Assembly: GCF_022489035.1 (NCBI RefSeq)
Contig: NZ_JAKVTV010000001.1
Span: 806,001 to 870,000 of the forward strand
DNA: 64,000 nucleotides
DNA from: Christiangramia lutea
GTDB lineage: Bacteria; Bacteroidota; Bacteroidia; Flavobacteriales; Flavobacteriaceae
Reading direction: 5' to 3'
The notes under the pieces are model-generated. The model worked only from the letters and a program-made list of their open reading frames with translations, did no database searches and had not been told where the DNA came from. Shown one piece after another: positions 30,612 through 51,888 of the stretch (positions are counted from its first letter, which is position 1; every line of letters begins with the position of its first letter). Both the position numbers and the translations under genes were made by a program.

Positions 30612-31712
30612 ATGAAAAAGTTACTTCTAATATTCTGCCTTATTGCCTTAGGATGCAAATCTGATAAGAACAAGGAGATCAAGGATCTATCTTCAGCCCA
30701 GGAAAGTACTCCTGAGATCGGTGATATTTTAGTTGAGAAACCAGCCGATGTAGATGTTCCTCCTGGCATGAAATGGGTTTCCGGTGTGCATTTCACCATG
30801 GGTGCAGACGAGTCAGATCCGTTGGCACTTCCAAGGGAAAGACCTGCACATCCGGTTGCCGTGGATGGCTTTTTTATAGATATAACCGAAGTCACCAATA
30901 AAGATTTTAAAGAATTTGTGGAAGAAACCGGTTATGTTACAGTGGCCGAAAGACCTATAGACTGGGAAGAATTAAAAAAGCAGCTCCCACCCGGAACCCC
31001 AAAACCCCACGACAGTTTATTGAGGCCGGGATCCCTGGTTTTCAAAAAAGACCTGGAAGAATTAAAGATCTTTAATTTTTCCCAATGGTGGGAATGGAAA
31101 ACAGGTGCTAACTGGAAGCAACCTGAAGGCCCGGGAAGTTCAATTGAAGGTAAGGACAACTTTCCGGTAGTCCATATTTCCTTTGAAGATGCCCAGGCCT
31201 ATTGCAGATGGGCCGGAAGAAGGCTTCCTACCGAAGCTGAATGGGAGGCCGCAGCACATGGAAAGAGACCCGGTGGAGTTTATACATGGGGAAATGATAA
31301 AAAAGAATTGAATTTTCTAGCCAATACCTGGCAGGGAGAATTTCCCTTGAAAAACATTCCTGAAGACGGTTTTAAATATGCAGCCCCGGTTAAATCCTTT
31401 CCAGCTAACAGCCTTGGATTATTCGATATGGCAGGAAACGTTTGGGAATGGACCAAAGACTGGTATGACGAGCAATACTATCAAAAACTTTTGGAACAGG
31501 GAGAAGTTATTAATCCACTGGGTCCCGAGAAACCCTATAATCCGGCAAATCCTTATGAGAAGGAAAAAGTGATTAAAGGCGGCTCGTTTCTGTGCAATGA
31601 ATCTTATTGTGCCAGTTATCGTATCACAGCGAAAATGCCTCAGGCCCTTGATTCAGGTTCAGATCATCTAGGCTTTAGAACCGTGGCTACGGTAGAAATG
31701 CTCCGGAAATAG
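30612..31712 (+). CDS. formylglycine-generating enzyme (sulfatase-modifying factor), lipoprotein
   Basis: Predicted enzyme that oxidises the active-site Cys of sulfatases to formylglycine. The 366-residue protein starts with a lipoprotein signal (LIALGC, C15). The FGE-sulfatase domain spans about 50-362, with MKWVSGVHFTMGADESD, the FFIDITEVTN strand, CRWAGRRLPTEAEWEAAA and NVWEWTKDW. Both catalytic cysteines are present in GGSFLCNESYC (C328 and C333), which separates a true FGE from the gliding proteins GldJ/GldK and other inactive relatives. Lipoprotein anchoring implies it works in the periplasm. The only intact sulfatase in this window lies about 20 kb away. Confidence 0.92.
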   Translation: MKKLLLIFCLIALGCKSDKNKEIKDLSSAQESTPEIGDILVEKPADVDVPPGMKWVSGVHFTMGADESDPLALPRERPAHPVAVDGFFIDITEVTNKDFKEFVEETGYVTVAERPIDWEELKKQLPPGTPKPHDSLLRPGSLVFKKDLEELKIFNFSQWWEWKTGANWKQPEGPGSSIEGKDNFPVVHISFEDAQAYCRWAGRRLPTEAEWEAAAHGKRPGGVYTWGNDKKELNFLANTWQGEFPLKNIPEDGFKYAAPVKSFPANSLGLFDMAGNVWEWTKDWYDEQYYQKLLEQGEVINPLGPEKPYNPANPYEKEKVIKGGSFLCNESYCASYRITAKMPQALDSGSDHLGFRTVATVEMLRK

Positions 31713-32679: not shown

Positions 32680-34134
32680 ATGAAAAGATCAATTATTCTA
32701 TTTTTCATCAGTTTCTATTTCTCAGGAATAATCAATGCGCAGGACTCTCACTACTGGTCCCAGCAATTTGGAACAAGGTCTGCCCTACTTTCCGGTGCAG
32801 TCCTGGGAGGAACCAATGACAATACGATGATCTATTACAATCCAGGCGCTCTGGGATTACTGGATAATTCGTCCATATCTATAAATGCGAATGCATATAG
32901 ATTAGGAAATATACGGGTAGAGAACGCCTTGGGGCAGCAGGCCGATTTTGAAAGCGCACAAGTTGGTTCTGTTCCATTGCTCGCTGGAGGAATGATAAAT
33001 ACTAAAGAACAGAAATGGAAAATAGGTTATGCCTTTATCACCCCGGTAGATTTTAGTTTTAAGGGTATAGCCAGGCTTGAAGGAAACGAAGACCTTATTC
33101 CGGCTGATGAAAGTACTGGCCTGGAAGAATTCGTTGCCGAGGCCGGAGTAACTACCAAAACATCGGAATTAATTTTCGCTATAGGCCTGGGCCGGAAATT
33201 AAATGAAAACTGGTCTATAGGGTTCAGCAACCTTTTTACTGTTCGTTCACATTCTTATCAACGAAACTTTTCTACCTATGTTTTTATGAATGATGAGGAG
33301 CGGACTCTCGTTGGTGCCAACCAGAATCAGAATGTGGAATACTATAATGTTAGGTATGCGGCTAAACTTGGAGCAGTTTATCGCAAAGGAAACTGGAGCT
33401 CCGGCCTCACTGTAACTACTCCTTCCCTTAACCTTTTTGGTAATGGCACCCTCGCCTCGAACATTGCCCTAAGGAATATATACCTTAACGATGATAATGA
33501 ACGTGTTAGCGGTGTGGCAACAGCCCGGCAGGCAGAATTAAAATCTAAATTTAAATCTCCTTTCTCAGTTGCTCTGGGAACGAATTATGAAAAAGGCAGG
33601 TCCAGCGCTGGAATAGCTGTGCAGTATTTTTCCGGAATAGACATTTACAATATCATGGAACCTACACCGGGTTCTTTTGTACGGCCTGCTGAACTTGCTC
33701 CGCAGCTACAAAGTGACGCTTTCCTGAGAAACAGGGCTGCCGCAAAATCTGTTTTGAATATTGCGGTTGGGTATGAACATAAATTGAATGAGACCATTTC
33801 CCTGCTTTTCAGCGGTAGAAATGATATGTCTTATTTTGATGACCAGCTGAATGAAGGAACAGGAATAAAGACCACGATCAGCAGCTGGGATATTTACCAC
33901 TTCTCTGGAGGTGTTACCATAGACCATAAGAATAGCAGTCTTAGCCTGGGATTATTGTACAGTACAGGAAATACGGGTAATTATGAACAAACTGGAAACT
34001 TTGACCCAAACAACGTAGATCTGGTAGAAGGCACCACTACTATCACAAATGCCAGGTATAGTAATATTGGGCTTTTAATAGGCTATACGTTCTACCTGAA
34101 GATGTTCAGCTTTAAAAATGAACCTGAAAACTAA
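32680..34134 (+). CDS. FadL/OmpP1-like outer-membrane protein
   Basis: A 484-residue beta-barrel protein with a signal peptide (cleavage near INAQ). The first mature segment (HYWSQQFGTRSALLSGA, then NDNTMIYYNPGALGLL) matches the FadL family pattern, in which a TIYYNPAGLA-like motif follows the N-terminal hatch. The C-terminus IGYTFYLKMFSFKNEPEN carries a short tail after the last strand. It probably carries hydrophobic compounds across the outer membrane; family assignment is by recall and moderately sure. Confidence 0.8.
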   Translation: MKRSIILFFISFYFSGIINAQDSHYWSQQFGTRSALLSGAVLGGTNDNTMIYYNPGALGLLDNSSISINANAYRLGNIRVENALGQQADFESAQVGSVPLLAGGMINTKEQKWKIGYAFITPVDFSFKGIARLEGNEDLIPADESTGLEEFVAEAGVTTKTSELIFAIGLGRKLNENWSIGFSNLFTVRSHSYQRNFSTYVFMNDEERTLVGANQNQNVEYYNVRYAAKLGAVYRKGNWSSGLTVTTPSLNLFGNGTLASNIALRNIYLNDDNERVSGVATARQAELKSKFKSPFSVALGTNYEKGRSSAGIAVQYFSGIDIYNIMEPTPGSFVRPAELAPQLQSDAFLRNRAAAKSVLNIAVGYEHKLNETISLLFSGRNDMSYFDDQLNEGTGIKTTISSWDIYHFSGGVTIDHKNSSLSLGLLYSTGNTGNYEQTGNFDPNNVDLVEGTTTITNARYSNIGLLIGYTFYLKMFSFKNEPEN

Positions 34135-36083: not shown

Positions 36084-36935
36084 ATGTCTGCCCTTCTAAA
36101 AAAGCCCTGGTTTCAGATCCTGCTTATGGGTATTTCCCTGGCCGCAATTCTGTTAATCGTTTTCGGGCCTAAAACCCCCGGTGCAGAGGACAAAAAGGTG
36201 TTGATTGGTAACGCCGAGGTGGCCCAGCTTATTGCCAGCTGGAATCGTACCTGGAACCGTATGCCTACCGAAGAGGAATTAAATGGTTTGCTTGCCAATC
36301 ACGTTCGCGAAGAGATCCTGTATCGCGAAGCCCTCAATCAGAATCTGGATAAGAACAATGCCATGGTTCGAAGAGGATTGATCATGCAAATGAATATGAT
36401 GGCTGAATCTCAGGCTCAGGAAAAATCGGTTTCTGAAGAGGCCATCAAAGCCTATTATGATCTTAGAAAAGATAAGTTCTTCAGTTCACCAGAATATACG
36501 TTCACCCAGATTAATTTTGACGGCAGCAGGGAAGAGGAAGAAATTAAAAAGATCGCCGAAAGACTGAACTCTCAAAATATTCCGCCCAATTCCGAAAACC
36601 TTCCAGGAAAAAAGGGTATGCTTCAAAAGGATTTTAAAGAGGCCGATGATTACACTATAGTAAGGGCCCTTGGAACAAATTTTGAAAGTTCGCTCGAAGG
36701 CATGAGATTGCAGACCTGGGAAGGCCCGGTAAAGTCAGGTTTTGGCTGGCACCTGGTTTATATAACTAAAATAACAACCTCGGAAACTTTGCCTTTGGAG
36801 GTGGTACGTGAAAATATCATTACCGAACTTCAGTACGAAGAGGCGCAGGCTGCCAAGGAGCAGTTTTATACAGAATTAAGGCAGCAATATGATGTTGTCT
36901 ACGAGGGTATGGCTAAAGACCTGATGAATGAATAA
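36084..36935 (+). CDS. membrane-anchored parvulin-type peptidyl-prolyl isomerase
   Basis: A 283-residue periplasmic PPIase anchored by an N-terminal transmembrane segment (about 11-31). A SurA/PrsA-like helical part (about 45-130, with EELNGLLANHVREEILYREAL) precedes a parvulin domain (about 135-245). The closing strand SGFGWHLVYITK matches the family. It is first in a five-gene run in which every junction overlaps. It may fold the envelope components encoded downstream. A candidate -7 box (TATCTTTT, 36013-36020) lies about 65 bp ahead of the start. Confidence 0.88.
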   Translation: MSALLKKPWFQILLMGISLAAILLIVFGPKTPGAEDKKVLIGNAEVAQLIASWNRTWNRMPTEEELNGLLANHVREEILYREALNQNLDKNNAMVRRGLIMQMNMMAESQAQEKSVSEEAIKAYYDLRKDKFFSSPEYTFTQINFDGSREEEEIKKIAERLNSQNIPPNSENLPGKKGMLQKDFKEADDYTIVRALGTNFESSLEGMRLQTWEGPVKSGFGWHLVYITKITTSETLPLEVVRENIITELQYEEAQAAKEQFYTELRQQYDVVYEGMAKDLMNE

Positions 36936-39054
36936 TTCTTTCAAAAAGTTCATTTTTCTTGTTCTACTGGGGATCTGCCTGCTAAAACCAGCAGATTTCA
37001 GAGCTGATATCGTTTATCCGGCCAGGCTGGAACTCACCGAAACCGAACCCGGGGTTTTTAACGTTTTCTTTACCCTACCGGTAATAAATGGAAAGGTGAT
37101 CAAAGCCAGTCCCATTTTGCCTGGGACCTGTAATAATCTAAGTGAACCGAAAATTACCGGTACGGCTTATTCCAAAAATCTTAGCTGGAAAATTTCCTGT
37201 AATGAAGAACCGTTCTATGGAAAGCAAATTGGTATCGAAGGCCTGCAGGGAAGCCAGGTAGAAATTTTACTGGTGATCAATTTATTGGATGGCAGAAGTT
37301 TTAATAAGAAATTGAGTCCCTCCATGGCCTATTTTGAAGTGCCATATCCACCAGGTTTCTTAGAATTATTAAAAACCGGAACTTTCAAGGGTGCAAGAAC
37401 CATGCTTTTACAGCACTATTTTTATTTGCTGGTATTCGGACTCATTTTTTTACTGAAGGTTAAAAACAGGAAAAAATACTACCTGTTCTTATTTCTATCC
37501 ATTTTAACCGGCTATTTCCTGGGAAACTTCGAGCTGATAAAAATCCCCGGCTGGATGTTCCCCGTAAGCGTTCTTATTGCACTCTTGCTGTTAGGCTTAA
37601 AAACTTCTGGATTACAAAATATCCAATTTTCATCACTTTTGATCCTGGTGCCCGGGCTATTCCTGGGGAATCTGTTGAGTATTGAAAAAATCGATTTGGT
37701 ACTTACTCCAGGTGAAGAGTTAGTTTTTGCCATATTTTTTAGCCTTGGTATCGCGCTAGGGCTTTTACTGGTAGTCATACTTTTTTCGCAACTAAAAAAT
37801 ATCCTGAAATATTTTAAGGTTTATAAAAAGTTTTTGCCTGCGCTTTCTATCATTATAGGCTCACTGAGCTTAGGTCTTTTAATTTTTGAGCTCAGTCTGT
37901 TCTGGCGAACAACTTCCATGTTGCCGCAAATACCGGGCATAAGTCTTTTATTTATCTTGCTTATTCCCCTTCTCATTTCGAGGCGAAACTTATTGGCTTC
38001 CGGATTTAGTTTCGCTATTTTTTCAGTCTTCGGTCTGATCCTTTTAATGAATGGATTTTCCATTCCGTATGCTGAGATTATGTTACTTGGCCTGATCTTG
38101 TTAAGCCTTGTTTTCAATTTATTGAAACCGGTAACACCCCGAATATTTTTTCTGGTAAATATCACTATTGGAGCCGTATTGGCCGGAAATATCCTTGGAA
38201 GTTATGCAAACGATAATTTGTCTTTTCCACTGGCCAGATCTATTGGCTATCTCGCCATGGCAATATTTCTGATTGGGATGATAGCAGGAATTCTGCCTAA
38301 AAGGTCAACTAGTAAAATGTATCATAGAGTTTGGGGACTCTTGCTTCTGAGTTTCGGATTGATGTTTTTCGGAAACCTATTTTTGGAGGAATATTTCGAT
38401 AGTTTGGCTTCAGAATATGTGAATGGAATTCTTCCAGTGCCTATTCTAAGCCTTATATTATTGATATTTACCATTATTGCCTGGCCTAGAAACCGAAGAA
38501 TTCACAAGCAAATGAATCTGGAAACCCGGAAACCATTGCTTAGCATAAGTCTACTGGTACTGGCCCTAATTCTTCTGCCATTTCATTTTGGCATAAAAAA
38601 TCCCTGGTATGAAGCACAAAAGCTTGATAAGCAAGGGATGAAGCTCGTTATGGAAAATGTATTATCCAATACCTATACCGCCTTTAATGAAGAAGATGAG
38701 GAGAAACTTTTCGAAGCGCTTAGCCAAAATGTAGATGCTGAACTGCTGGACAATGTTTACCTCGATAGCCGACGCAGGCTGAGCATGGGATTGAGAGAAG
38801 GTGCAGAAGTTAGCGTTGAAGAGGTAAAATTAAATGAGCTCGGAGACCCGGCACAAAAAACCGACTCTGATATTTTTGAATATCCCGTAAAATGGACCGT
38901 TACAGCTCGGGTAAGACATCTAAAACATATACATTACCGCAAGAATTCATATACCGGCACCGTTGCCTTAAAATCTATAGATAATCAATGGAAGATCTCA
39001 AAAATAAGTCTCTCCTCCGAAGATCGGAAAGTGATGGCGGCTTCGAACCTGTGA
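36928..39054 (+). CDS. polytopic membrane protein with HupE/UreJ-like N-terminal domain
   Basis: A 708-residue protein with three parts. Residues 27-145 form an extracytoplasmic domain (ADIVYPARLELTETEPGVFN) that resembles the N-terminus of HupE/UreJ-type proteins, which are linked to nickel or cobalt handling. About 14 hydrophobic helices follow (about 160-545). The last 120 residues are a soluble domain ending VTARVRHLKHIHYRKNSYTG and NQWKISKI, like an NTF2-type fold with a His-rich edge. The conserved DHxLF motif of true HupE is not clear; only QHYFYLLVF is seen near 164-172. The start overlaps the PPIase gene by 8 bp. A role in metal movement is inferred. Confidence 0.8.
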   Translation: MNNSFKKFIFLVLLGICLLKPADFRADIVYPARLELTETEPGVFNVFFTLPVINGKVIKASPILPGTCNNLSEPKITGTAYSKNLSWKISCNEEPFYGKQIGIEGLQGSQVEILLVINLLDGRSFNKKLSPSMAYFEVPYPPGFLELLKTGTFKGARTMLLQHYFYLLVFGLIFLLKVKNRKKYYLFLFLSILTGYFLGNFELIKIPGWMFPVSVLIALLLLGLKTSGLQNIQFSSLLILVPGLFLGNLLSIEKIDLVLTPGEELVFAIFFSLGIALGLLLVVILFSQLKNILKYFKVYKKFLPALSIIIGSLSLGLLIFELSLFWRTTSMLPQIPGISLLFILLIPLLISRRNLLASGFSFAIFSVFGLILLMNGFSIPYAEIMLLGLILLSLVFNLLKPVTPRIFFLVNITIGAVLAGNILGSYANDNLSFPLARSIGYLAMAIFLIGMIAGILPKRSTSKMYHRVWGLLLLSFGLMFFGNLFLEEYFDSLASEYVNGILPVPILSLILLIFTIIAWPRNRRIHKQMNLETRKPLLSISLLVLALILLPFHFGIKNPWYEAQKLDKQGMKLVMENVLSNTYTAFNEEDEEKLFEALSQNVDAELLDNVYLDSRRRLSMGLREGAEVSVEEVKLNELGDPAQKTDSDIFEYPVKWTVTARVRHLKHIHYRKNSYTGTVALKSIDNQWKISKISLSSEDRKVMAASNL

Positions 39055-39731
39055 TCAGGATGGACCAGGTGGGCTTTGCCTATTCCAGGGATTCTTTTAA
39101 ATTAAATATCCCTAAACTTAGTGTTGGCAAATCTGAAAAACTGGGTATTACCGGGCCCAGCGGCTGTGGAAAAACGACTTTGCTGAATCTAATTTCAGGA
39201 ATCATTAAGCAAGATTCAGGGAGTATCCGGATGGGAGATATAGAATTGAACAAACTAAGTTCACAGGACATGAAAGACCTCAGGCTAGTGAAGATGGGAC
39301 TTATCTTTCAGCAGTTCGAGTTACTGGAATATTTGAATGTGGTGGATAACATCCTGCTTCCATTCAGGATCAATCCAATTTTAAGCCTGGAAGCCGAAAC
39401 CAGAGAAAGGGCAAGAACCCTGGCTACTTCTATGGGACTTGGAGATAAGCTGAAACGATTTCCGGCCAATCTTTCGCAAGGGGAACGTCAGCGGGTTTCT
39501 GTTGCCAGGGCTTTGATCACTCAACCGGAGCTACTTATCTGTGACGAACCAACCGCCAACCTGGACCCGGTGAACCGGGATCATATTCTGGACATTATAG
39601 CTTCCTACTGCGGTGAGAACAAAACTGCTTTGGTAATGGTCACGCACGATCAAGAAATTTTGAACAGGTTCGACCGGGTACAGGACATCCTGGAATTTTC
39701 AAATTATAAAGATCCTCGCAGGCATGAATAA
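39051..39731 (+). CDS. ABC transporter ATP-binding protein (LolD/MacB type)
   Basis: An ATPase of 226 residues that powers the FtsX-type permease encoded next. Walker A is GPSGCGKT (about 35-42), the signature is LSQGERQRVS, and Walker B is LLICDEPTANLD followed by the H-loop VMVTHDQE. The frame is open from 38988, but that start would overlap the upstream gene by 67 bp. The GTG at 39051 gives a four-base GTGA overlap and the family-like N-terminus MIRMDQVGFAY; an ATG at 39060 is also possible. Its stop overlaps the permease start by 8 bp. Confidence 0.93.
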   Translation: MIRMDQVGFAYSRDSFKLNIPKLSVGKSEKLGITGPSGCGKTTLLNLISGIIKQDSGSIRMGDIELNKLSSQDMKDLRLVKMGLIFQQFELLEYLNVVDNILLPFRINPILSLEAETRERARTLATSMGLGDKLKRFPANLSQGERQRVSVARALITQPELLICDEPTANLDPVNRDHILDIIASYCGENKTALVMVTHDQEILNRFDRVQDILEFSNYKDPRRHE

Positions 39732-40902
39732 CAGTTTTTACATAGCCTGGCGATACCTTCAATTTCATTGGGGTAAAACCCTGCTACTCATACTTTCCAT
39801 CGCTTTGGTCGTTTTTATCCCGCTGGGATTGAATTACCTGGTGAATAAAGGTTCGGAAGATTTGATGGACAGGGCAGAAAAAACACCATTAATTGTTGGT
39901 GCAAAAGGCAGCGAAACCGAATTAAGCCTGAGCGCGCTCTATTTCAATAAACCGAAGAATGATGCCGTTGAATTCCGTGAAGTTGAAAGTATTAAAGAAC
40001 AGGATTTGGGCATTCCTATCCCGCTGAATATCGAATACCAGGTAAAGGAACAACCTATTGTAGGTACTACTTCAGCATATTTTGAATTCAGAAATCTGGA
40101 ATTAAAAGAAGGCAGAAAAATGGCCATTTTAGGCGAATGCGTCCTGGGTGTAAATACCGCAAAAAAGCTGAACGCTGAAGTTGGAGGTTCGGTGATCTCA
40201 TCGCCTTCAGGAGCTTTTGATGTGGCTGGCAGTTTTCCTCTTAAAATGACCGTGGTTGGTATTTTAGAAGAGACCGGTACCCCCGATGATGAAGCTGTGT
40301 TTACCGATATCAAGACCACTTGGGTTATTTCAGGAAAAGCTCACGGTCACCAGGATCTGCAACAGGTAGTAAATGACACCTTACTGCTCAATAAAAATGA
40401 AAACCGAGCTGTAGCCAGTCCCGCAGTACTATCTTATACAGAAATCACTCCGGAAAATATCAATTCTTTTCATTTTCACGACGATCCGGGAGATTATCCT
40501 GTGAACGCCATTATCGTGGTACCCAACGATCGTAAATCGGCTTTGATGCTGCGTGGACGTTACGAAAATAACCAGAATTCAGTGCAGATGCTGGTCCCGG
40601 AGGAAGTGATCTCAGAGCTGGTAGACACCATGATCTCTATCAGGGATCTTCTAATTCTGGCCGGAGTGATTATTGGCATTGCCTGCCTGGCGATCCTGGC
40701 CTTTGTGTTTGCACTTTCCATCAAACTTAGAAAAGCTGAGATCACTACCATGAAACATATTGGCGCTTCCCGTAATTTTGTAAGCAGCGTGCTGGGAATT
40801 GAAATTGGAATTGTGCTAATTTTAGCCATCATTTTATCAGGAATCTTAACTTTAACCATGGGGAACTACGGAATCCCACTAATAGAAAAACTAATCTCAT
40901 GA
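39724..40902 (+). CDS. ABC transporter permease, FtsX/MacB (type VII) family
   Basis: A 392-residue permease with an N-terminal transmembrane helix (about 17-38), a large periplasmic domain (about 40-295) and two or three C-terminal helices (about 305-390). The FtsX core is SIKLRKAEITTMKHIGASRNFV, the coupling region typical of the family. Type VII permeases normally transmit mechanical force to periplasmic partners and do not form a metal channel. Periplasmic AHGHQD (about 206-211) adds a small His cluster. It is translationally coupled to both neighbours, so it works with the ATPase and the ZnuA-like lipoprotein. Confidence 0.9.
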   Translation: MNNSFYIAWRYLQFHWGKTLLLILSIALVVFIPLGLNYLVNKGSEDLMDRAEKTPLIVGAKGSETELSLSALYFNKPKNDAVEFREVESIKEQDLGIPIPLNIEYQVKEQPIVGTTSAYFEFRNLELKEGRKMAILGECVLGVNTAKKLNAEVGGSVISSPSGAFDVAGSFPLKMTVVGILEETGTPDDEAVFTDIKTTWVISGKAHGHQDLQQVVNDTLLLNKNENRAVASPAVLSYTEITPENINSFHFHDDPGDYPVNAIIVVPNDRKSALMLRGRYENNQNSVQMLVPEEVISELVDTMISIRDLLILAGVIIGIACLAILAFVFALSIKLRKAEITTMKHIGASRNFVSSVLGIEIGIVLILAIILSGILTLTMGNYGIPLIEKLIS

Positions 40903-41819
40903 AAAAGACCAGTCTAATTTTAGCATTTTTGATCTGCCTTGTTTCCTGTAAGGATAAAGAAAAGGAAAGTCCGCAGGAAGAATCTAAACAGCCGGAAGAA
41001 CAACCTGTAGTTTATGTAAGCAACTACCCGCTTTATTATTTTGCTGATAAAATTGGCGGGGAAGCCATAGATCTTAAATTTCCTGCTTCAGAAGAAACCG
41101 ATCCTTCCGGTTGGGTTCCAGGGGCAGAACAGATCGTGGAAATGCAGGAAGCCGATCTAATCCTGTTGAATGGTGCCACTTTCGAAAAATGGCTGACCAA
41201 TGTTTCGCTTAATGATGAGGATATGGTAAATTCCACGGCAGGCCTGGAAGATAAAATGCTTCCGCTGGGCGAAAAATTTACCCATAGTCACGGGGAAGGT
41301 GGCGAACATACCCATGAAGGCACGGCCAGCATTACCTGGCTGGATCTTGAGCTGGCCATCGCCCAGGCTGAGAAAGTGAACGAAGCGCTTAAAAACACGG
41401 CACCGGAAAAAAGTGAGGAATTCCAGGCTAATTTCGAACAGCTAAAGAACAATCTTACGGAATTGCACCAAAATTATCAGGACCTGGAGATAGACCCTGA
41501 AAAAGTTCAGTTGATCTATTCCCACCCGGTTTATCAATATTTACAGGATGCTTACAGATTAAAAGGTGAGAGCCTGCACTGGGAGCCTTCAGATGAATGG
41601 AACCACGATAAAAAGCATGAAATAGAACACCTGGCTAAAAAAGGCCAGAAAACCTACCTGATCTGGGAAGACGAGCCTTCCAAAGCTATGAAAGATGGCT
41701 TGGAGGAAATGGGCGTGACCTCGATTGTGGTAAACCCGCTTTTCGGACAGCCGGAAAACCTGGATTTTCAGGAGGTGGTATTTAAGAATTTACAGAGTCT
41801 GCAAAAGATTTCTGAATAA
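40899..41819 (+). CDS. ZnuA-like metal-binding lipoprotein (cluster A-I substrate-binding family)
   Basis: A 306-residue lipoprotein (CLVSC lipobox, C17). It resembles zinc/manganese substrate-binding proteins: VVYVSNYPLYYFADKIGG (about 37-54), ADLILLNGATFEKW and SHPVYQYLQDAY (H209). It carries the His-rich loop HSHGEGGEHTH (129-139) seen in zinc binders. Two usual His ligands appear replaced: DPSGW (68-72) stands where DPHxxEP is expected, and ITWLD (145-149) where PHxWLD is. It begins in a four-base ATGA overlap with the permease gene. It may deliver or sense metal for the type VII transporter. Confidence 0.88.
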   Translation: MKKTSLILAFLICLVSCKDKEKESPQEESKQPEEQPVVYVSNYPLYYFADKIGGEAIDLKFPASEETDPSGWVPGAEQIVEMQEADLILLNGATFEKWLTNVSLNDEDMVNSTAGLEDKMLPLGEKFTHSHGEGGEHTHEGTASITWLDLELAIAQAEKVNEALKNTAPEKSEEFQANFEQLKNNLTELHQNYQDLEIDPEKVQLIYSHPVYQYLQDAYRLKGESLHWEPSDEWNHDKKHEIEHLAKKGQKTYLIWEDEPSKAMKDGLEEMGVTSIVVNPLFGQPENLDFQEVVFKNLQSLQKISE

Positions 41820-41846
41820 AATATTTGCTGTCTGAAAATTAGAAAA

Positions 41847-42152
41847 TCGTCATTCTGAATTTATTTCAGAATCTCTACAACTTGATTACGGTAAAAAAAA
41901 GAGAACCTGAAACTCCCGAAGTATCGGGACAGGTTGACGTGAAACCTGAAAAGCACAAGAACCTGAAACTCTCTAAGTATGTGGACAGGTTGACGCGGCA
42001 CCCTATGATTTGAATTTCGTCATTCTGAATTTATTTCAGAATCTCCACGGAACACCCGAATGGAGAGAACCTGAAAGTCCTGTAGTATCGGGCAGGTTGA
42101 CGTGGCTTTAATTGATTTGAATTTCGTCATTCTGAATTTATTTCAGAATCTC
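41847..42152. repeat. three direct copies of a 29-bp palindromic intergenic repeat (family A)
   Basis: The same 29-base unit occurs at 41847-41875, 42017-42045 and 42124-42152. It starts TCGTCATTCTGAATTTATTT. Each unit contains the inverted repeat ATTCTGAA/TTCAGAAT with a five-base loop, so it can fold as a hairpin. Copies two and three also share about ten bases upstream (GATTTGAATT). A partial inverted copy lies at 42185-42200 (TTCAGAATGACGAAAT). The units sit between the ZnuA-like gene and a broken sulfatase gene. Confidence 0.9.
41903..42105. repeat. three copies of a hairpin repeat (family B) interleaved with family A
   Basis: Units of about 38 bases start GAACCTGAAA and end CAGGTTGACG at 41903-41940, 41959-41996 and 42067-42105. 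The first is a two-tier hairpin in which ACCTG pairs with CAGGT and CCCGA pairs with TCGGG around an AGTA loop. The second has lost the inner stem, and the third keeps only part of it. The outer ACCTG/CAGGT stem is kept in all three, which suggests the structure matters or that the unit spread by a hairpin-dependent process. Confidence 0.85.
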
Positions 42153-42225
42153 AACTAATTATAAATGAGAAGAACCCGAAAAAGTTCAGAATGACGAAAT
42201 ATGGCTTTTTAGGCAGCCTGCATAT

Positions 42226-42651
42226 TTAATTAGAGCCAGCCTTTTGGATCATAGAATTAAAATCACCCAGCTGAGCCGAAAAGCTTTCCTGGCTCGGGGG
42301 AAATTCTTCAAAACTCTCCAGGAATGCGGCAAGGTGTCCGCCTACCTGTCCCAGAACCCAGCTTCGGTTTTCAGCCCATTCATCATAACCACGGGATTCA
42401 ATGAATCTTTCAAAGGGATCCAGTTTAAGGTTGATGACATACGGAGTCGATAATTCCGGTTGCGGAGACCTGAACCATTTTTCCTGGTCTCTGAAAAGTA
42501 CTTTCCAATCGCCATAGCGCATACCGTGCAAAGTGGTTTCAGTAAAATAAAAGAACTCTTTACGTTCGGTTTTGCCATTGTTCAATAAGATCTCGCTTTG
42601 ATCGTAACCATCAAGATGTACCTTATAATTTTTACCATTCTGGGTACTGAA
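42226..42651 (-). pseudogene. remnant of a sulfatase gene (C-terminal part only)
   Basis: An open frame encoding the last 140 or so residues of a sulfatase. It can be read from about 42651 (STQNGKNYKVHLDGYDQSEI) to the stop at 42226 without an ATG; a stop lies a few codons upstream. HGMRYGDWKVLFRDQ and NLKLDPFERFIESRGYDEW align by eye with [15 protein letters not shown] and [19 protein letters not shown] of the intact sulfatase at 50.3 kb. The catalytic Cys and metal-binding half are gone, so no activity is expected. Truncation beside the repeat cluster suggests a deletion or rearrangement. Confidence 0.8.
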
Positions 42652-45908: not shown

Positions 45909-47804
45909 ATGAAAAATGTTTTAAAATCAACTGGGATACTATTAAGCCTTTGTCTCTTCTGGAGCTGCGGAGATGAAAAAAAAGAAGATCAGGAGGACAT
46001 TGCGGAAATTAATGTAGCTGAAACAGAGGAAATCAAGTCTAATCCTTTAAAAGATGTATACTGGGGGGATACCCACCAGCATACGGGAAATTCTTTTGAT
46101 GTTTATTTATTCGGAACACCCAATTCCACTCCAGAGACCGCGTTTCGTTTTGCCAGGGGTGAAGCGGTAGAAAGCCCTACCACCGGTGAAACCATGAAAT
46201 TAACCAAACCATTGGATTTTATGGTAATCGCAGACCATGCCGAATTATTAGGCTCTATTGCTCTCATGTATGATGGGGTTCCTGGTTTCGCCGATACCAA
46301 AACTGCAGAAAAATTCCTGGAAATTGCTCCGGAACCCAAGGAAGAAGGAATGCAGAAGATCTATGACATTCTTAATTATGCTGCCTTTGACCAGCCAAAT
46401 GAGGCAAATTTAACTTCAAAAGATCTTATTAGTGATTTTGGAGGTGATAAAAGAAAAACAGCCTGGAACAATTATCTTGAAACCACCCAGAAATTTAACG
46501 ATCCAGGAACATTTACTACTCTTATAGGATGGGAATGGTCCTCGAATAACAGTGGTGCCAATCTTCACCGGGTAATATTTATGCCTGAAGATGAAAATGT
46601 AGCTAAGCAGTTCATTCCATACAGTGCATTAAGCAGTGATGATCCGGAAGATCTTTGGGACTGGCTGGACCAGACTAGTAACAAAACTGGAGCAAGTTTC
46701 GTTGCAATTCCACATAATCCAAATATTAGTATCGGGCTTATGTTTCCTGAAGTTCGCCTGAACGGGCAACCGGTAGATGAGGCCTATGCCAAACAACGAA
46801 TGAAATGGGAAAAGAACATAGAGGTCACCCAGATAAAAGGAGATTCTGAAACCCACCCCGCACTTTCGCCGAATGATGAATTTGCCGATTTTGAAACCTA
46901 TGATTTTGCATTAACTCCCGACGGAACCAGACCAGACCCTACTGTTGCAGATTACGTTAGAACCGGTTTAATGAGAGGTCTGGAACTCGAAAAAAAAATA
47001 GGAACGAACCCTTATAAAGTAGGACTGATTGGGAGTAGTGATTCTCATACCGGGATGAGTGCCATAGAGGAGACCAATTTTGCCGGTAAAGGTCAGCATG
47101 ACGCCAAACCAGAACAACGATCACATCCAACCGGGATAGGTTCTTCAAAAGGATGGGACATGGGTGCTGCTGGTTGGGTTGGTGTTTGGGCCGAATCGAA
47201 TACCCGCAAAAGTCTGGTAGACGCTTTTAAAAGAAGAGAGGTCTATGCAACTACCGGCCCAAGGATCACCTTGCGATTCTTTGGAGGATTTGATTATTCT
47301 AAAAATGATCTCGAGGATGAAAATATGGTTCAAACAGGCTATGACAAAGGCGTGCCCATGGGTGGAGATCTTCGGAATACCAATGGCAAGGCTCCGAGTT
47401 TTATGATCGCCGCGATGAAAGATCCAGATGGCGCAAACCTTGACCGAATTCAGGTGATCAAAGGCTGGCTGGGTACCGATGGAAAAGCTAAAGAAAAGGT
47501 ATTTGATGTAGCCCTTTCCGGAGACCGAACCGATGGCAGCGAAAAAGTTGGAAATACCGTAGATCTGAAAACCGGGAAATATACTAACAGCATTGGAGCC
47601 TCAGAACTCTCAACCTTGTGGACCGATCCTGAATTTGATGCCAGCCAGAGCGCATTTTACTACGTTAGGGTATTGGAAATTCCAACGCCAAGGTATTCAT
47701 TATTGGACGCTATAGAATTGGGAATCGATGTGAAGGAAACCAATCATCCTGCCACTATTCAGGAGCGGGTATATAGTTCACCAATCTGGTATAACCTGGA
47801 ATAA
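45909..47804 (+). CDS. DUF3604 lipoprotein (first of tandem pair)
   Basis: A 631-residue lipoprotein (LFWSC lipobox, C20). The DUF3604 domain covers almost the whole protein. It opens with YWGDTHQHTGNSFD (about 53-66), an HxH pattern like the metal site of PHP-type phosphoesterases, and continues with FMVIADHAELLG, GWEWSSN, IPHNPN and GSSDSHTGMS. These His/Asp clusters suggest a multinuclear metal hydrolase in the periplasm or at the surface. The reaction is unknown to me. It is a paralogue of the next gene and has the same length. Confidence 0.9.
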   Translation: MKNVLKSTGILLSLCLFWSCGDEKKEDQEDIAEINVAETEEIKSNPLKDVYWGDTHQHTGNSFDVYLFGTPNSTPETAFRFARGEAVESPTTGETMKLTKPLDFMVIADHAELLGSIALMYDGVPGFADTKTAEKFLEIAPEPKEEGMQKIYDILNYAAFDQPNEANLTSKDLISDFGGDKRKTAWNNYLETTQKFNDPGTFTTLIGWEWSSNNSGANLHRVIFMPEDENVAKQFIPYSALSSDDPEDLWDWLDQTSNKTGASFVAIPHNPNISIGLMFPEVRLNGQPVDEAYAKQRMKWEKNIEVTQIKGDSETHPALSPNDEFADFETYDFALTPDGTRPDPTVADYVRTGLMRGLELEKKIGTNPYKVGLIGSSDSHTGMSAIEETNFAGKGQHDAKPEQRSHPTGIGSSKGWDMGAAGWVGVWAESNTRKSLVDAFKRREVYATTGPRITLRFFGGFDYSKNDLEDENMVQTGYDKGVPMGGDLRNTNGKAPSFMIAAMKDPDGANLDRIQVIKGWLGTDGKAKEKVFDVALSGDRTDGSEKVGNTVDLKTGKYTNSIGASELSTLWTDPEFDASQSAFYYVRVLEIPTPRYSLLDAIELGIDVKETNHPATIQERVYSSPIWYNLE

Positions 47805-47955: not shown

Positions 47956-49851
47956 ATGAAAAATGCTATAAAATTACTTGGGATACTGTTATGCATTTGT
48001 CTCTTCTGGAGCTGCGGAGATGAAAAAAAGGAAAAAACCGAAAATGAATCTTCTTCAACCCGTGCAGATCGTGAGCAGATAGAAAGAAATGAGCTTAAGG
48101 AAGCCTATTTTGGAGACACTCATGTACACACCGGCTGGTCATTTGATGCCGGCCTTGATGGAGCTACGCTTACTCCAACCGATGCTTATAGATATGCCAC
48201 AGGTGAAGAAGTCACTTCAAATTCTGGAATAAAAACACAAATATCAAGACCCTATGACTGGTTTATGATCACTGATCATTCCGACGGAATGGGAACCATC
48301 AATGAAGTGATTGATGGAAATGCTGAAATGATGGAAAGTGAGGTCCTGCAAAGGTGGAACAAGGCTTTCGCCTCAGGTAGCGAACAAGCCGCTGCCGATG
48401 CCAAAAGTGAAGTGATCAATCTCCAATCAACTGGAAAATTGCCAAAACAGGTAATGGACCCCAAATGGATGAAAACGGCCTGGAACAAGACGATCGATGC
48501 GGCTGAAGAATTCTACAAACCCGGTAATTTCACCACTTTTACTGCTTACGAATGGACGGTTAATGCCGGTGGTGGCGATAATCTTCACAGGAATATCATC
48601 TATAAGGAAGGTGGCGACCAGGCCCGTGATATCTTACCACTTACAACCTTTGAGACTGAAGATCCAAAGAAACTTTGGGAATGGATGGCAAATTATGAAG
48701 CGCAGACAGGCGACAAACTGCTGGCCATTCCGCATAATGGGAATATGTCTAATGGCCGGATGTATGAAGAGCAGCAATTTGATGGTTCACCTATGACCAG
48801 TGAATGGGCCGAAATGAGGCAGAAATACGAAAGACTCATGGAATTATTTCAATATAAAGGCCAGAGCGAAGCGCATCCTTTTCTTTCTCCGGAAGACGAA
48901 TTCGCCGATTATGAACTCTGGGATCGTGGCAACCTGGTGCTGAAGCCAAAAAAATCAAAGGAAGCCTGGAAATACGAATACTGGCGTGAAGGGCTTAAAT
49001 CTGGAATGAGGATCCAACAGGAGCTGGGAGTTAATCCATTTATGTATGGCTCTAATAGCGCTACAGATGCACATACGGGAATATCCTCCCTAGAGGAAGA
49101 TGAATTCTATGGAAAGTTCAAAACCGTGGAACCCAGCAATAAAGAGAGATGGAATTTCCCACTTATTGACGGGAACAACGACCAGTATAAGGGATGGGAA
49201 ATGGCGGCTTCTGGTGTTATGGGAGTCTGGGCAGAATCTAATACTCGCGAAGATATCTGGGAAGCTATGTATAGAAGGGAAACTTTTTCCACTACCGGTC
49301 CGCGTATGAAGATCAGGTTTTTTGGAGGGTTTGACTATACCGAAGAAGATAAAAATGATCTGGCGAAAAATGGATATGAGAAAGGTGTAGCCATGGGCGC
49401 CATGCTTGGCGCTGCTATGAATGATAAAGCACCAACTTTCCTGATCCAGGCGATGAAAGATCCGGAAGGAGCAAACCTGGATAGGTTACAGGTGATTAAA
49501 GGTTGGGTAGATGCCAGTGGTGAGACCCAGGAAAAGATCTATCAGGTGGCCTGGTCTGGGGATCGTAAACTTGATAATAATGGTAAGCTACCCGCAGTGG
49601 GGAATACAGTAAATTTAGAAACGGCAGAATATACTAACGATATTGGGGATACTGAATTCACAACCTATTGGACCGATCCTGACTTCGATCCTTCATTACC
49701 AGCCTTTTATTACGTAAGAGTACTGGAGATCCCAACACCTCGATGGACATTATTCGATAAGGTAAGACATGATCTGACCCTTCCGGATGAAGTTCCACTC
49801 GTACATCAGGAACGAGGAGTGAGTTCTCCAATCTGGTATAACCCAAAATAG
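47956..49851 (+). CDS. DUF3604 lipoprotein (second of tandem pair)
   Basis: A 631-residue paralogue of the preceding gene with the same lipobox region (LFWSCGDEKKE). Metal-site motifs are FGDTHVHTGWSFDAG (about 52-66), MITDHSDGMG, YEWTVN, IPHNGN and SATDAHTGIS. The two copies differ across the regions between motifs, for example in the residues after the first HxH, so they may act on related but different substrates. It has its own promoter-like box and is followed by a strong terminator, so it need not be co-transcribed with the sulfatase. Confidence 0.9.
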   Translation: MKNAIKLLGILLCICLFWSCGDEKKEKTENESSSTRADREQIERNELKEAYFGDTHVHTGWSFDAGLDGATLTPTDAYRYATGEEVTSNSGIKTQISRPYDWFMITDHSDGMGTINEVIDGNAEMMESEVLQRWNKAFASGSEQAAADAKSEVINLQSTGKLPKQVMDPKWMKTAWNKTIDAAEEFYKPGNFTTFTAYEWTVNAGGGDNLHRNIIYKEGGDQARDILPLTTFETEDPKKLWEWMANYEAQTGDKLLAIPHNGNMSNGRMYEEQQFDGSPMTSEWAEMRQKYERLMELFQYKGQSEAHPFLSPEDEFADYELWDRGNLVLKPKKSKEAWKYEYWREGLKSGMRIQQELGVNPFMYGSNSATDAHTGISSLEEDEFYGKFKTVEPSNKERWNFPLIDGNNDQYKGWEMAASGVMGVWAESNTREDIWEAMYRRETFSTTGPRMKIRFFGGFDYTEEDKNDLAKNGYEKGVAMGAMLGAAMNDKAPTFLIQAMKDPEGANLDRLQVIKGWVDASGETQEKIYQVAWSGDRKLDNNGKLPAVGNTVNLETAEYTNDIGDTEFTTYWTDPDFDPSLPAFYYVRVLEIPTPRWTLFDKVRHDLTLPDEVPLVHQERGVSSPIWYNPK

Positions 49852-50319: not shown

Positions 50320-51888
50320 ATGAAGAAATCATTTTTAAGCCTTATCCTTTGCTGTTGGTGGGTATTGGGTTTTGCCCAGGAAAAACCAAATATCCTGGTG
50401 ATATGGGGGGATGATATAGGCTGGACAAACCTTAGTGCCTATGAACATGGTACAATGGCCTATACCACACCTAACATAGACCGCATAGGAGAAGAAGGAA
50501 TTATTTTTACCGATCATTATGCACAGCCGTCCTGTACGGCGGGACGGGCTGCGTTTATAACCGGGCAGTACCCAATTCGATCGGGGATGACCACCGTGGG
50601 ACAACCCGGAGATGCTTTAGGCCTGCAGAAAGAATCGCCCAGCCTTGCAGCGGTATTGAAGGCAGCCGGATATCGTACCGGGCATTTTGGAAAGAATCAC
50701 CTTGGAGATCGAAACGAGCATTTGCCAACTGTACATGGTTTTGATGAGTTCTTCGGAAACCTGTACCACCTGAATACACAGGAAGAGGCCGAGCAAAGGG
50801 ATTATCAGAATTTTGGGAAAGCTTATTCCGGTTCCCTGGAAGAATATGAAAAGAAATTTGGTACCCGTGGAGTGATACATTCGTTTGCCACCGATAAAGT
50901 TGATAATACGTCCGATCCTCGTTTTGGACCGGTAGGAAAACAGCGTTTAGAGGATACCGGGCCACTTACCCAGGAGCGAATGAAGAATTTTGACCGCGAG
51001 GAAGTGATCCCGAAAGCACTTGATTTTATTGAAGGCTCTAAAGATGCGGATGAACCTTTCTTCGTATGGCTAAATACCAGCCGTATGCACCTGTACACCA
51101 GGATCGAAGACGAATGGCTAAATAAAGTAGAAAAATATACCAGTGAAGCAGATTATTATGGAGCAGGAATGCTTCAGCATGACTCAGATATAGGTTATGT
51201 TTTGGATCAACTGGAAGAAATGGGACTTTTGGAGAATACCATCGTGTTATATTCAACAGATAACGGTCCCGAACATGCTTCCTGGCCGCATGGAGGAACT
51301 ACTCCTTTCCGTGGAGAAAAAATGACCACTTACGAAGGTGGGGTTCGTGTACCATGTATGGTGAGATGGCCCGACAAGATCCCGGCTGGCCAGCAATTGA
51401 ATGGTATCCAGAGCCATATGGACCTGTTCACTACACTGGCAGCTGCAGCGGGAGTAGATAATGTAGCCGATAAGATGATGAACGAAAAAAAACAGTATAT
51501 CGATGGAGTAAATAACCTGGATTACTGGTTGGGTAATTCAGATAAATCGGAACGAAACCATATTTTCTATTATTATGAAAGTAAGCTTACCGCGGTGCGT
51601 ATGGGGCCGTGGAAATTCCATTTCTCCACCAAGGAAGATTATTATGCAAACGTAGTTCCACGTACGGTGCCGCTGGTTTTCAATATTCGGATGGATCCTT
51701 ACGAGAGTTACGATAGTACCGATGCTTACGGACATTTGATGCAAAAGGTTTCCTGGCTCATTCAGCCAATGGGCGAATTGATGGGTCAGCACCTTCAAAC
51801 TTTGGCAGAATATCCGCCGGTACAGGGAGGAAAATCCTTTGATATGTCGAATGTGGTTGATGAATTTATCAACAAGGCCCGGCAATAA
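50320..51888 (+). CDS. periplasmic sulfatase (formylglycine-dependent arylsulfatase family)
   Basis: A 522-residue sulfatase with a signal peptide ending GFAQ. Calcium ligands are in [10 protein letters not shown] (D31, D32). The modification site is [13 protein letters not shown], with C72 expected to become formylglycine; it has Ala in place of the more common Pro in CxPxR. Further sulfatase blocks are [16 protein letters not shown] and [13 protein letters not shown], the latter carrying the metal-binding Asp/Asn. It would need the formylglycine-generating enzyme encoded at 30.6 kb. Substrate specificity cannot be read. It stands ahead of a four-gene outer-membrane operon after 132 bp. Confidence 0.94.

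Follow-up and report, generated by a model that had tools for sequence, protein, structure and literature searches.

In a 64,000-nucleotide stretch of the Christiangramia lutea genome (contig NZ_JAKVTV010000001.1, positions 806,001 to 870,000; hereafter the window), a run of five overlapping genes contains a conserved unit of four. These four encode a membrane protein ending in a domain that we call HUPC, an ATP-binding cassette (ABC) ATPase, a permease of the MacB fold and a lipoprotein of the ZnuA family. The core system is real, conserved and rare, and it is undescribed within the open-licence PubMed Central (PMC) literature examined, in whose titles and abstract openings no description of this gene combination was found. 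Judged by its member proteins, the system is neither Zrg nor ZnuABC nor a HupE complex. We put at about 40% the probability that it forms an envelope metal relay on the periplasmic side, driven by ATP through the MacB-fold ABC and resembling Zrg but equipped with a binder derived from ZnuA and with an additional acceptor.

Conservation of a four-gene core

All five genes lie on the forward (+) strand, and successive genes overlap by 8, 4, 8 and 4 bases. They encode a membrane-anchored, parvulin-type peptidyl-prolyl isomerase (PPIase; 36084–36935; PF13145 Rotamase_2 in Pfam, 6e-15), a 708-residue polytopic membrane protein termed gene 2 (36928–39054), the ATPase, of the FtsE/LolD/MacB type (39051–39731; PF00005 ABC_tran, 8e-32), the permease (39724–40902; PF12704 MacB_PCD, 1e-8; PF02687 FtsX, 6e-6) and the ZnuA-like lipoprotein (40899–41819; PF01297, 2e-38). 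An earlier note on this DNA had described such an overlapping run with a GTG start for the ATPase, and the coordinates of the open reading frames (ORFs) agree with it. An in-frame ATG is also present upstream, at 38988; the GTG is favoured because related ATPases in loci L056–L059, L062 and L107 begin at the equivalent residue. No NCBIfam model scored above its cut-off for any of the five proteins (for the ATPase, among the best 25 of 206 rows). For the ATPase the best model was FtsE (1e-51, below its cut-off), with LolD also among the best.

In a sample of 198 genomes from the window's phylum, 40, its own included, have a permease match, and only G198, from another class, carries a further permease of high identity (42%). 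There, at locus L037 (on the same contig as L058), genes for a protein resembling an outer-membrane barrel, a 591-residue membrane protein, an ATPase, a permease and a ZnuA-like lipoprotein are contiguous, with identities to the window proteins of 27% for the C-terminal domain of gene 2, 47% for the ATPase, 43% for the permease and 39% for the ZnuA-like protein. A scan of genome contigs with two permeases as queries, that of the window and that of L037, yielded 16 loci from Christiangramia, two Robertkochia, two Tamlana, other Bacteroidota metagenome-assembled genomes (MAGs), an Ignavibacterium chromosome and further MAGs labelled Pelagibius (an alphaproteobacterium), Zixibacteria and Verrucomicrobia. 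The conserved co-occurrence that the earlier note proposed as a check was found in other phyla, in alphaproteobacterial, zixibacterial, verrucomicrobial and Ignavibacterium genomes.

The full order of HUPC protein, ATPase, permease and ZnuA-like protein is present in the window, in L053–L058 and in L062, with a small ORF separating the ATPase and permease genes of L057. At L059 the ZnuA gene is placed before the ATPase gene. L060, L061 and L068 have the permease followed by ZnuA, preceded by a gap or a contig end, L063–L066 have HUPC, ATPase and permease with ZnuA not alongside, and L067 has ATPase followed by permease. Another complete copy of the core, L107, which is also the most divergent, came from a HUPC search of 240 genomes that belong to the same phylum as G265. 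Because the core order recurs at 20–47% identity in L037/L058, the alphaproteobacterial MAG L062 and L107, the association of these genes goes beyond chance. Of those 240 genomes, 7 have the HUPC domain, one of them being G265, and of 395 genomes from the window's phylum 3 have it, counting the window genome (one match is weak, E 7e-4); the system is rare, though widely scattered among bacteria.

Pairing of the permease with this type of ZnuA extends to unlinked genes. PF01297 proteins are present in 15/15 genomes behind the 16 permease loci (all but the genome of L064), and the four Verrucomicrobia that have no ZnuA at the locus carry operon-type copies elsewhere (5 copies in 4 genomes), which score 305–327 bits with a subfamily profile versus 38–57 for six classical ZnuAs. 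The subfamily accompanies the permease in 17/17 genomes (G000, which is the window genome, G255–G269 and G504), a count restricted to genomes that a permease search had brought up. Permease and ZnuA distance matrices are correlated (Mantel r 0.93, 15 loci), as shared ancestry alone would also give, and those of permease and ATPase have r 0.86 (12 loci).

The window genome (3.47 Mb, 100% complete) has the lipoprotein as its sole PF01297 protein and no match to PF00950, the ZnuB family. A rival ZnuB partner elsewhere in the genome was thus looked for and not found, and the earlier proposal that the lipoprotein is partnered by an FtsX/MacB ABC rather than by ZnuBC holds by Pfam assignment. PF00950 is matched in 8/15 genomes behind the permease loci. 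Strong matches are confined to the alphaproteobacterial, the zixibacterial and four verrucomicrobial genomes, which also carry further classical-type PF01297 proteins; weak matches in G257 and G261 were rejected as ZnuB partners, being FecCD. No ZnuB was found in the nine Bacteroidota and Ignavibacterium genomes of L053–L061 (several of them MAGs of unstated completeness), seven of which have no PF00950 match.

A remodelled binder, a shortened permease and the HUPC domain

The cleft ligands of cluster A-I substrate-binding proteins are three histidines and one acidic residue. By sequence profile the window lipoprotein belongs to this family (PF01297, 133 bits against a cut-off of 29), and its closest profile matches in the PDB are AdcA (3e-37) and YcdH, although its metal site has been remodelled. 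Ligand positions were taken from alignment with AdcA, YcdH and six classical ZnuAs, five from alphaproteobacterial or verrucomicrobial genomes and one from Ignavibacterium. All six classical proteins keep the three histidines, whereas the first and second are absent from 15/15 ZnuA-like members, in which the third histidine (14/15) and the acidic ligand (13/15) are mostly kept; the L107 protein has one histidine two residues ahead of the first site. A four-histidine loop (HxH...HxH), which is H129-x-H131...H137-x-H139 in the window protein (41283–41315), is conserved in 12/12 aligned rows, in 15/15 members of a wider set and in 5/5 of the unlinked verrucomicrobial copies, while five of the six classical ZnuAs have no such loop.

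Other features of the binder vary among loci. The window lipoprotein carries C-K-D-K-E after its lipobox cysteine (40899–41000), presumably resembling the surface-export signal of Bacteroidota lipoproteins, and the copies at L062 and L068 have no lipobox cysteine. Two Verrucomicrobia have a bacterial-like globin gene immediately next to their unlinked operon-type ZnuA gene (L083, 8349–8720; L086, 4345–4788); it was recognized through PF01152 in L086 and by eye in L083, where the overlap is 4 bases. In Ignavibacterium (L060, 11959–14783) genes for a small His-rich protein and a TonB-dependent receptor directly follow the ZnuA gene, which suggests an outer-membrane step.

Three transmembrane (TM) helices are predicted for the permease, with TM4 absent. 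Its AlphaFold2 (AF2) model (predicted local distance difference test score, pLDDT, 84) places helices at residues 16–52, 292–335 and 350–391, and hydropathy reveals no hydrophobic segment beyond the third in 13/13 full-length permeases (387–395 residues) or in that of L107 (375 residues). Zrg-type permeases from other genomes are 428–491 residues long, and a fourth hydrophobic segment is present in 6/6. The best Foldseek match of the model was MacB (5gko; E 9e-11, though with a TM-score of just 0.49), ahead of LolCDE, YbbAP, a MacB-like transporter from pneumococcus and HrtBA. Taken together with the MacB_PCD and FtsX domains, this predicted fold places the protein in the MacB/FtsX (type VII ABC) superfamily. 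Two motifs of its periplasmic part, H207-G-H209 (40342–40350) and F249-H-F-H252 (40468–40479), are conserved in 16/16 aligned rows; the L107 permease has HSH in place of HGH and keeps FHFH. This stretch is where Zrg-type permeases bear a variable His-rich loop. Those zinc-associated permeases appear to be the nearest relatives found, yet the window type forms a separate clade: identity to the Bacteroidota Zrg-type proteins (VVGAKGS clade) is 21–25%, with the GxKGS region and invariant columns in common, and a tree sets 15 members, L107 on a long branch, apart from 8 Zrg-type permeases with support of 100/100.

The C-terminal ~150 residues of gene 2 form the HUPC domain (residues 560–708; 38605–39051), which alignments show to be the part of the protein that is conserved across phyla. 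DSSP analysis of the AF2 model gives an alpha3-beta4 arrangement (pLDDT 76–88 in most blocks and 61–63 in a few), and there are weak Foldseek matches to NTF2-like proteins, including membrane-anchored ones (best E 2.3e-3). PDB sequence relatives were limited to weak Fis matches, taken as chance. A motif H664-xx-H667-x-H669 (38917–38934) is followed by R671, N673 and Y675, and all six residues are kept in 12/12 aligned rows; L107 retains the three histidines and the tyrosine and has lost the arginine and asparagine. In L062 the domain is borne on what appears from sequence to be a single TM helix. The conserved histidine clusters of the ZnuA-like protein, the permease and HUPC all fall in parts expected to be periplasmic. 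At five further loci (L103–L106 and L108) HUPC lies next to and downstream of an oxidoreductase of the GFO/IDH/MocA type (assigned by Pfam on L103 only), and these oxidoreductases carry what looks by eye like an export signal.

The flavobacterial setting

The earlier note counted the PPIase as part of the machine, a view that finds no support, since PPIase-bearing sets were seen only in six flavobacterial loci, the window and L053–L057, where the copies are 42–69% identical. Its description of gene 2 as HupE-like holds only for the descent of the front part. The front ~330 residues, an extracytoplasmic region that was seen only in flavobacteria, are homologous to HupE (25–28% identity) and precede many TM helices and the NTF2-like C-terminal domain. 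Histidine motifs common to 4/4 short HupEs of related genomes are absent from the four window-type proteins aligned with them, and a working HupE within the complex was rejected on this ground. The 708-residue protein matches no Pfam or NCBIfam family, including PF13795 and PF04955, and so differs from HupE/UreJ in its lost histidines, its unmatched families and its added HUPC domain. The AF2 model of the whole protein has a mean pLDDT of 64.5 and a predicted template-modelling score (pTM) of 0.39.

Four related genomes (L049–L052) carry a PPIase and a short HupE without this ABC, adjoining DUF3604 genes in 4/4 cases; the short HupEs of L049 and L050, the two compared with Pfam, match PF13795 at 1.3e-46 or better. 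The window genome has three DUF3604 (PF12228) genes, two of which encode lipoproteins in the window downstream of the operon (45909–47804 and 47956–49851, both +). In blastp comparisons with called ORFs, 7/8 flavobacterial-type core loci have DUF3604 genes in their flanks, the exception being L059 on a short contig, against 0/9 other core loci, of which the GC-rich ones have rough ORF calls. We read this as a PPIase–HupE–DUF3604 neighbourhood in which HupE may have been converted, have gained HUPC by fusion and have become linked to a more widespread ABC–ZnuA core. The DUF3604 proteins would be candidate clients of the system.

A predicted outer-membrane barrel protein (32680–34134, +), recognized by eye and without a Pfam match, is a possible accessory. 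In L058 a homologue (25% identity) immediately precedes the core, and in L057 one (59%) lies 2 kb downstream of it; none was found in the remaining core loci examined. Formylglycine-generating-enzyme-like proteins are encoded near the system in two phyla (window, 30612–31712; L063, 6433–8019), possibly by coincidence; that of L063 is a divergent neighbour next to ApbE. The intergenic region after the ZnuA gene (41813–42217) holds three copies each of a 66-nt repeat (reference, 86% and 65%) and a 29-nt repeat, with inverted partial copies at 42179–42217, and the cluster resembles an array of small palindromic elements. Beyond it, a 119-residue ORF on the opposite strand (42226–42585, -) corresponds to the C-terminal region of an aryl-sulfatase only (PF14707, below cut-off) and is probably a sulfatase remnant, and a full-length sulfatase gene lies at 50320–51888.

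A possible metal relay and its rivals

Two papers present ZrgABCDE of Vibrio as a system with a MacB-like permease that contributes to zinc acquisition (PMC9820375, PMC9817125), and a study of a Pseudomonas relative, PA4063–PA4066, argues that it exports a pyochelin–cobalt complex (PMC11481552). The statement in the earlier note that a MacB/FtsX transporter does not import metals was accordingly too strong. Zrg and PA4063–PA4066 share with the window system a separate ATPase, a MacB-like permease and a periplasmic partner of a metal-binding type, and the window system most plausibly works like Zrg. However, its binder is of the ZnuA type (PF01297) rather than DUF2796, its permease has three predicted TM helices instead of four and a clade of its own, and the HUPC domain is an addition. 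In PMC9817125, zrgE corresponds to DUF3299 and zrgA to DUF2796, and neither family is matched among the five operon genes at E<=0.1.

Our Zrg-type comparators are so called from their neighbour genes, no named ZrgB being among the sequences compared. The Bacteroidota clusters comprise an ATPase, a permease and a small partner, with PF11736 found in L045 only (one of three partners tested). A CobW GTPase gene adjoins L041 (Pfam), and similar genes were seen by eye in L038 and L043. No PDB relative of the L041 small partner was found that would link it to a solved ZrgE. A further full-length permease, of the Zrg type, was not found in the window genome, and among operon-bearing genomes G259 and G504 have one.

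Binders of the same family serve ZnuABC and AdcABC, but the window system has no ABC-3 permease, its neighbour being MacB_PCD/FtsX, and its binder lacks the first two canonical histidines while keeping those of the loop. A conceptual parallel, in different protein families, is NosDFY–NosL, an ABC pair with a metal lipoprotein that according to PMC7558416 assembles the copper centre of an exported enzyme in the periplasm.

The relay reading draws on the 17/17 pairing, the Mantel correlations, the histidine clusters, the MacB fold, the three-helix permease, the absence of ZnuB from the Bacteroidota and Ignavibacterium members and the zinc precedent of Zrg. In such a relay the ZnuA-derived lipoprotein would use its four-histidine loop, together with the residual cleft site, to capture a borderline divalent metal, Zn2+ being the likeliest. 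The motor would consist of the ATPase and the three-helix permease, and ATP-driven motion of the periplasmic part of the permease, which bears HxH and FHFH, would strip the metal off the lipoprotein and hand it to the membrane-anchored, NTF2-like HxxHxH domain at the periplasmic surface of the inner membrane. The metal might then travel on to exported metalloenzymes or enter the cytoplasm by some other path. In Flavobacteriaceae a folding-helper role would fall to the PPIase, with the adjacent DUF3604 proteins as clients. The gene set, its conservation and co-occurrence and the pattern of lost and retained histidines are observed, the three-helix permease and the fold classes are predicted by modelling, and we infer that metal is bound at all, as well as its identity, the order and direction of the hand-over, and the clients.

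Several observations weigh against a relay. At five HUPC loci (L103–L106 and L108) the surrounding 5 kb or so contains no ABC gene, and whereas four of them keep the full motif, L108 has aspartate for the third histidine. No Foldseek match of HUPC reaches E<=0.001, so the fold assignment is weak. In L107 even the remaining canonical cleft ligands of the binder are gone, although its loop is retained, so the metal site of the ZnuA-like protein is poorly defined. The permease-based sampling behind the pairing count also belongs here, as does a crude look upstream of the six flavobacterial loci for a Zur-like operator, which found no shared palindrome or long word. Finally, the window genome encodes three ZIP-type proteins, so zinc could enter the cell without this system, and the possibility that it is the genome's only zinc route was rejected.

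The strongest rival, unlikely in our view but still credible, is a zinc importer across the inner membrane, that is, a Zrg-like uptake system in which a ZnuA-type binder was recruited in place of ZrgA. The homology to ZnuA, the relation of the permease to the Zrg-type clade, the absence of ZnuB from the Bacteroidota and Ignavibacterium members and the TonB-dependent receptor and His-rich protein downstream in Ignavibacterium all agree with uptake. MacB-type permeases, however, are regarded as mechanotransmitters with no import path, and that of the window has one TM helix fewer; the ZIP proteins of its genome and the presence of ZnuB in alphaproteobacterial, zixibacterial and verrucomicrobial members also count against import. 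Precedents from relatives diverge, as ZrgA is required by Vibrio cholerae lacking znuA for growth in zinc-poor medium (PMC9820375), while export is argued in PMC11481552.

A bolder form of the relay, which we consider doubtful, is an undescribed class of machine whose permease passes no metal across the membrane and instead mechanically extracts it from the loop of the ZnuA-derived binder to load the HxxHxH domain. The helix of the HUPC protein itself would replace TM4 in trans, and exported enzymes such as the DUF3604 proteins would be metallated. It is improbable that the system exports a metal, free or complexed, in the way suggested for pyochelin–cobalt and PA4063–PA4066: the MacB fold and the Pseudomonas data of PMC11481552 speak for export, but the binder belongs to an uptake family, and no MacA- or TolC-like gene was found by Pfam among the five operon genes (with the neighbours partly scanned and the rest of the genome unsearched). 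Least probable is a non-metal force machine for lipoprotein or cell-wall work, with the ZnuA-like protein as a scaffold that lost metal binding, a reading that would fit the loss of two canonical ligands in 15/15 members and the sub-threshold FtsE and LolD matches of the ATPase, but under which conserved histidine pairs in three components would have no obvious reason to persist.

One lesson is that finding a single "ZnuA" in a Bacteroidota genome does not by itself imply ZnuABC. The gene set suggests a previously undescribed way of passing metal around the cell envelope, and a role in metalloprotein maturation is possible. It also includes, in HUPC, a domain with a metal-type motif in a window protein that neither Pfam nor NCBIfam matches. 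The role of MacB-fold ABC machines in metal uptake is disputed for Zrg, and this natural hybrid, which joins the binder of a classical importer to a MacB-fold machine, partly dismantling the cleft site of the binder and freezing its usually variable histidine loop, opens a direct route to learning what a force-transmitting ABC does with a metal ion.

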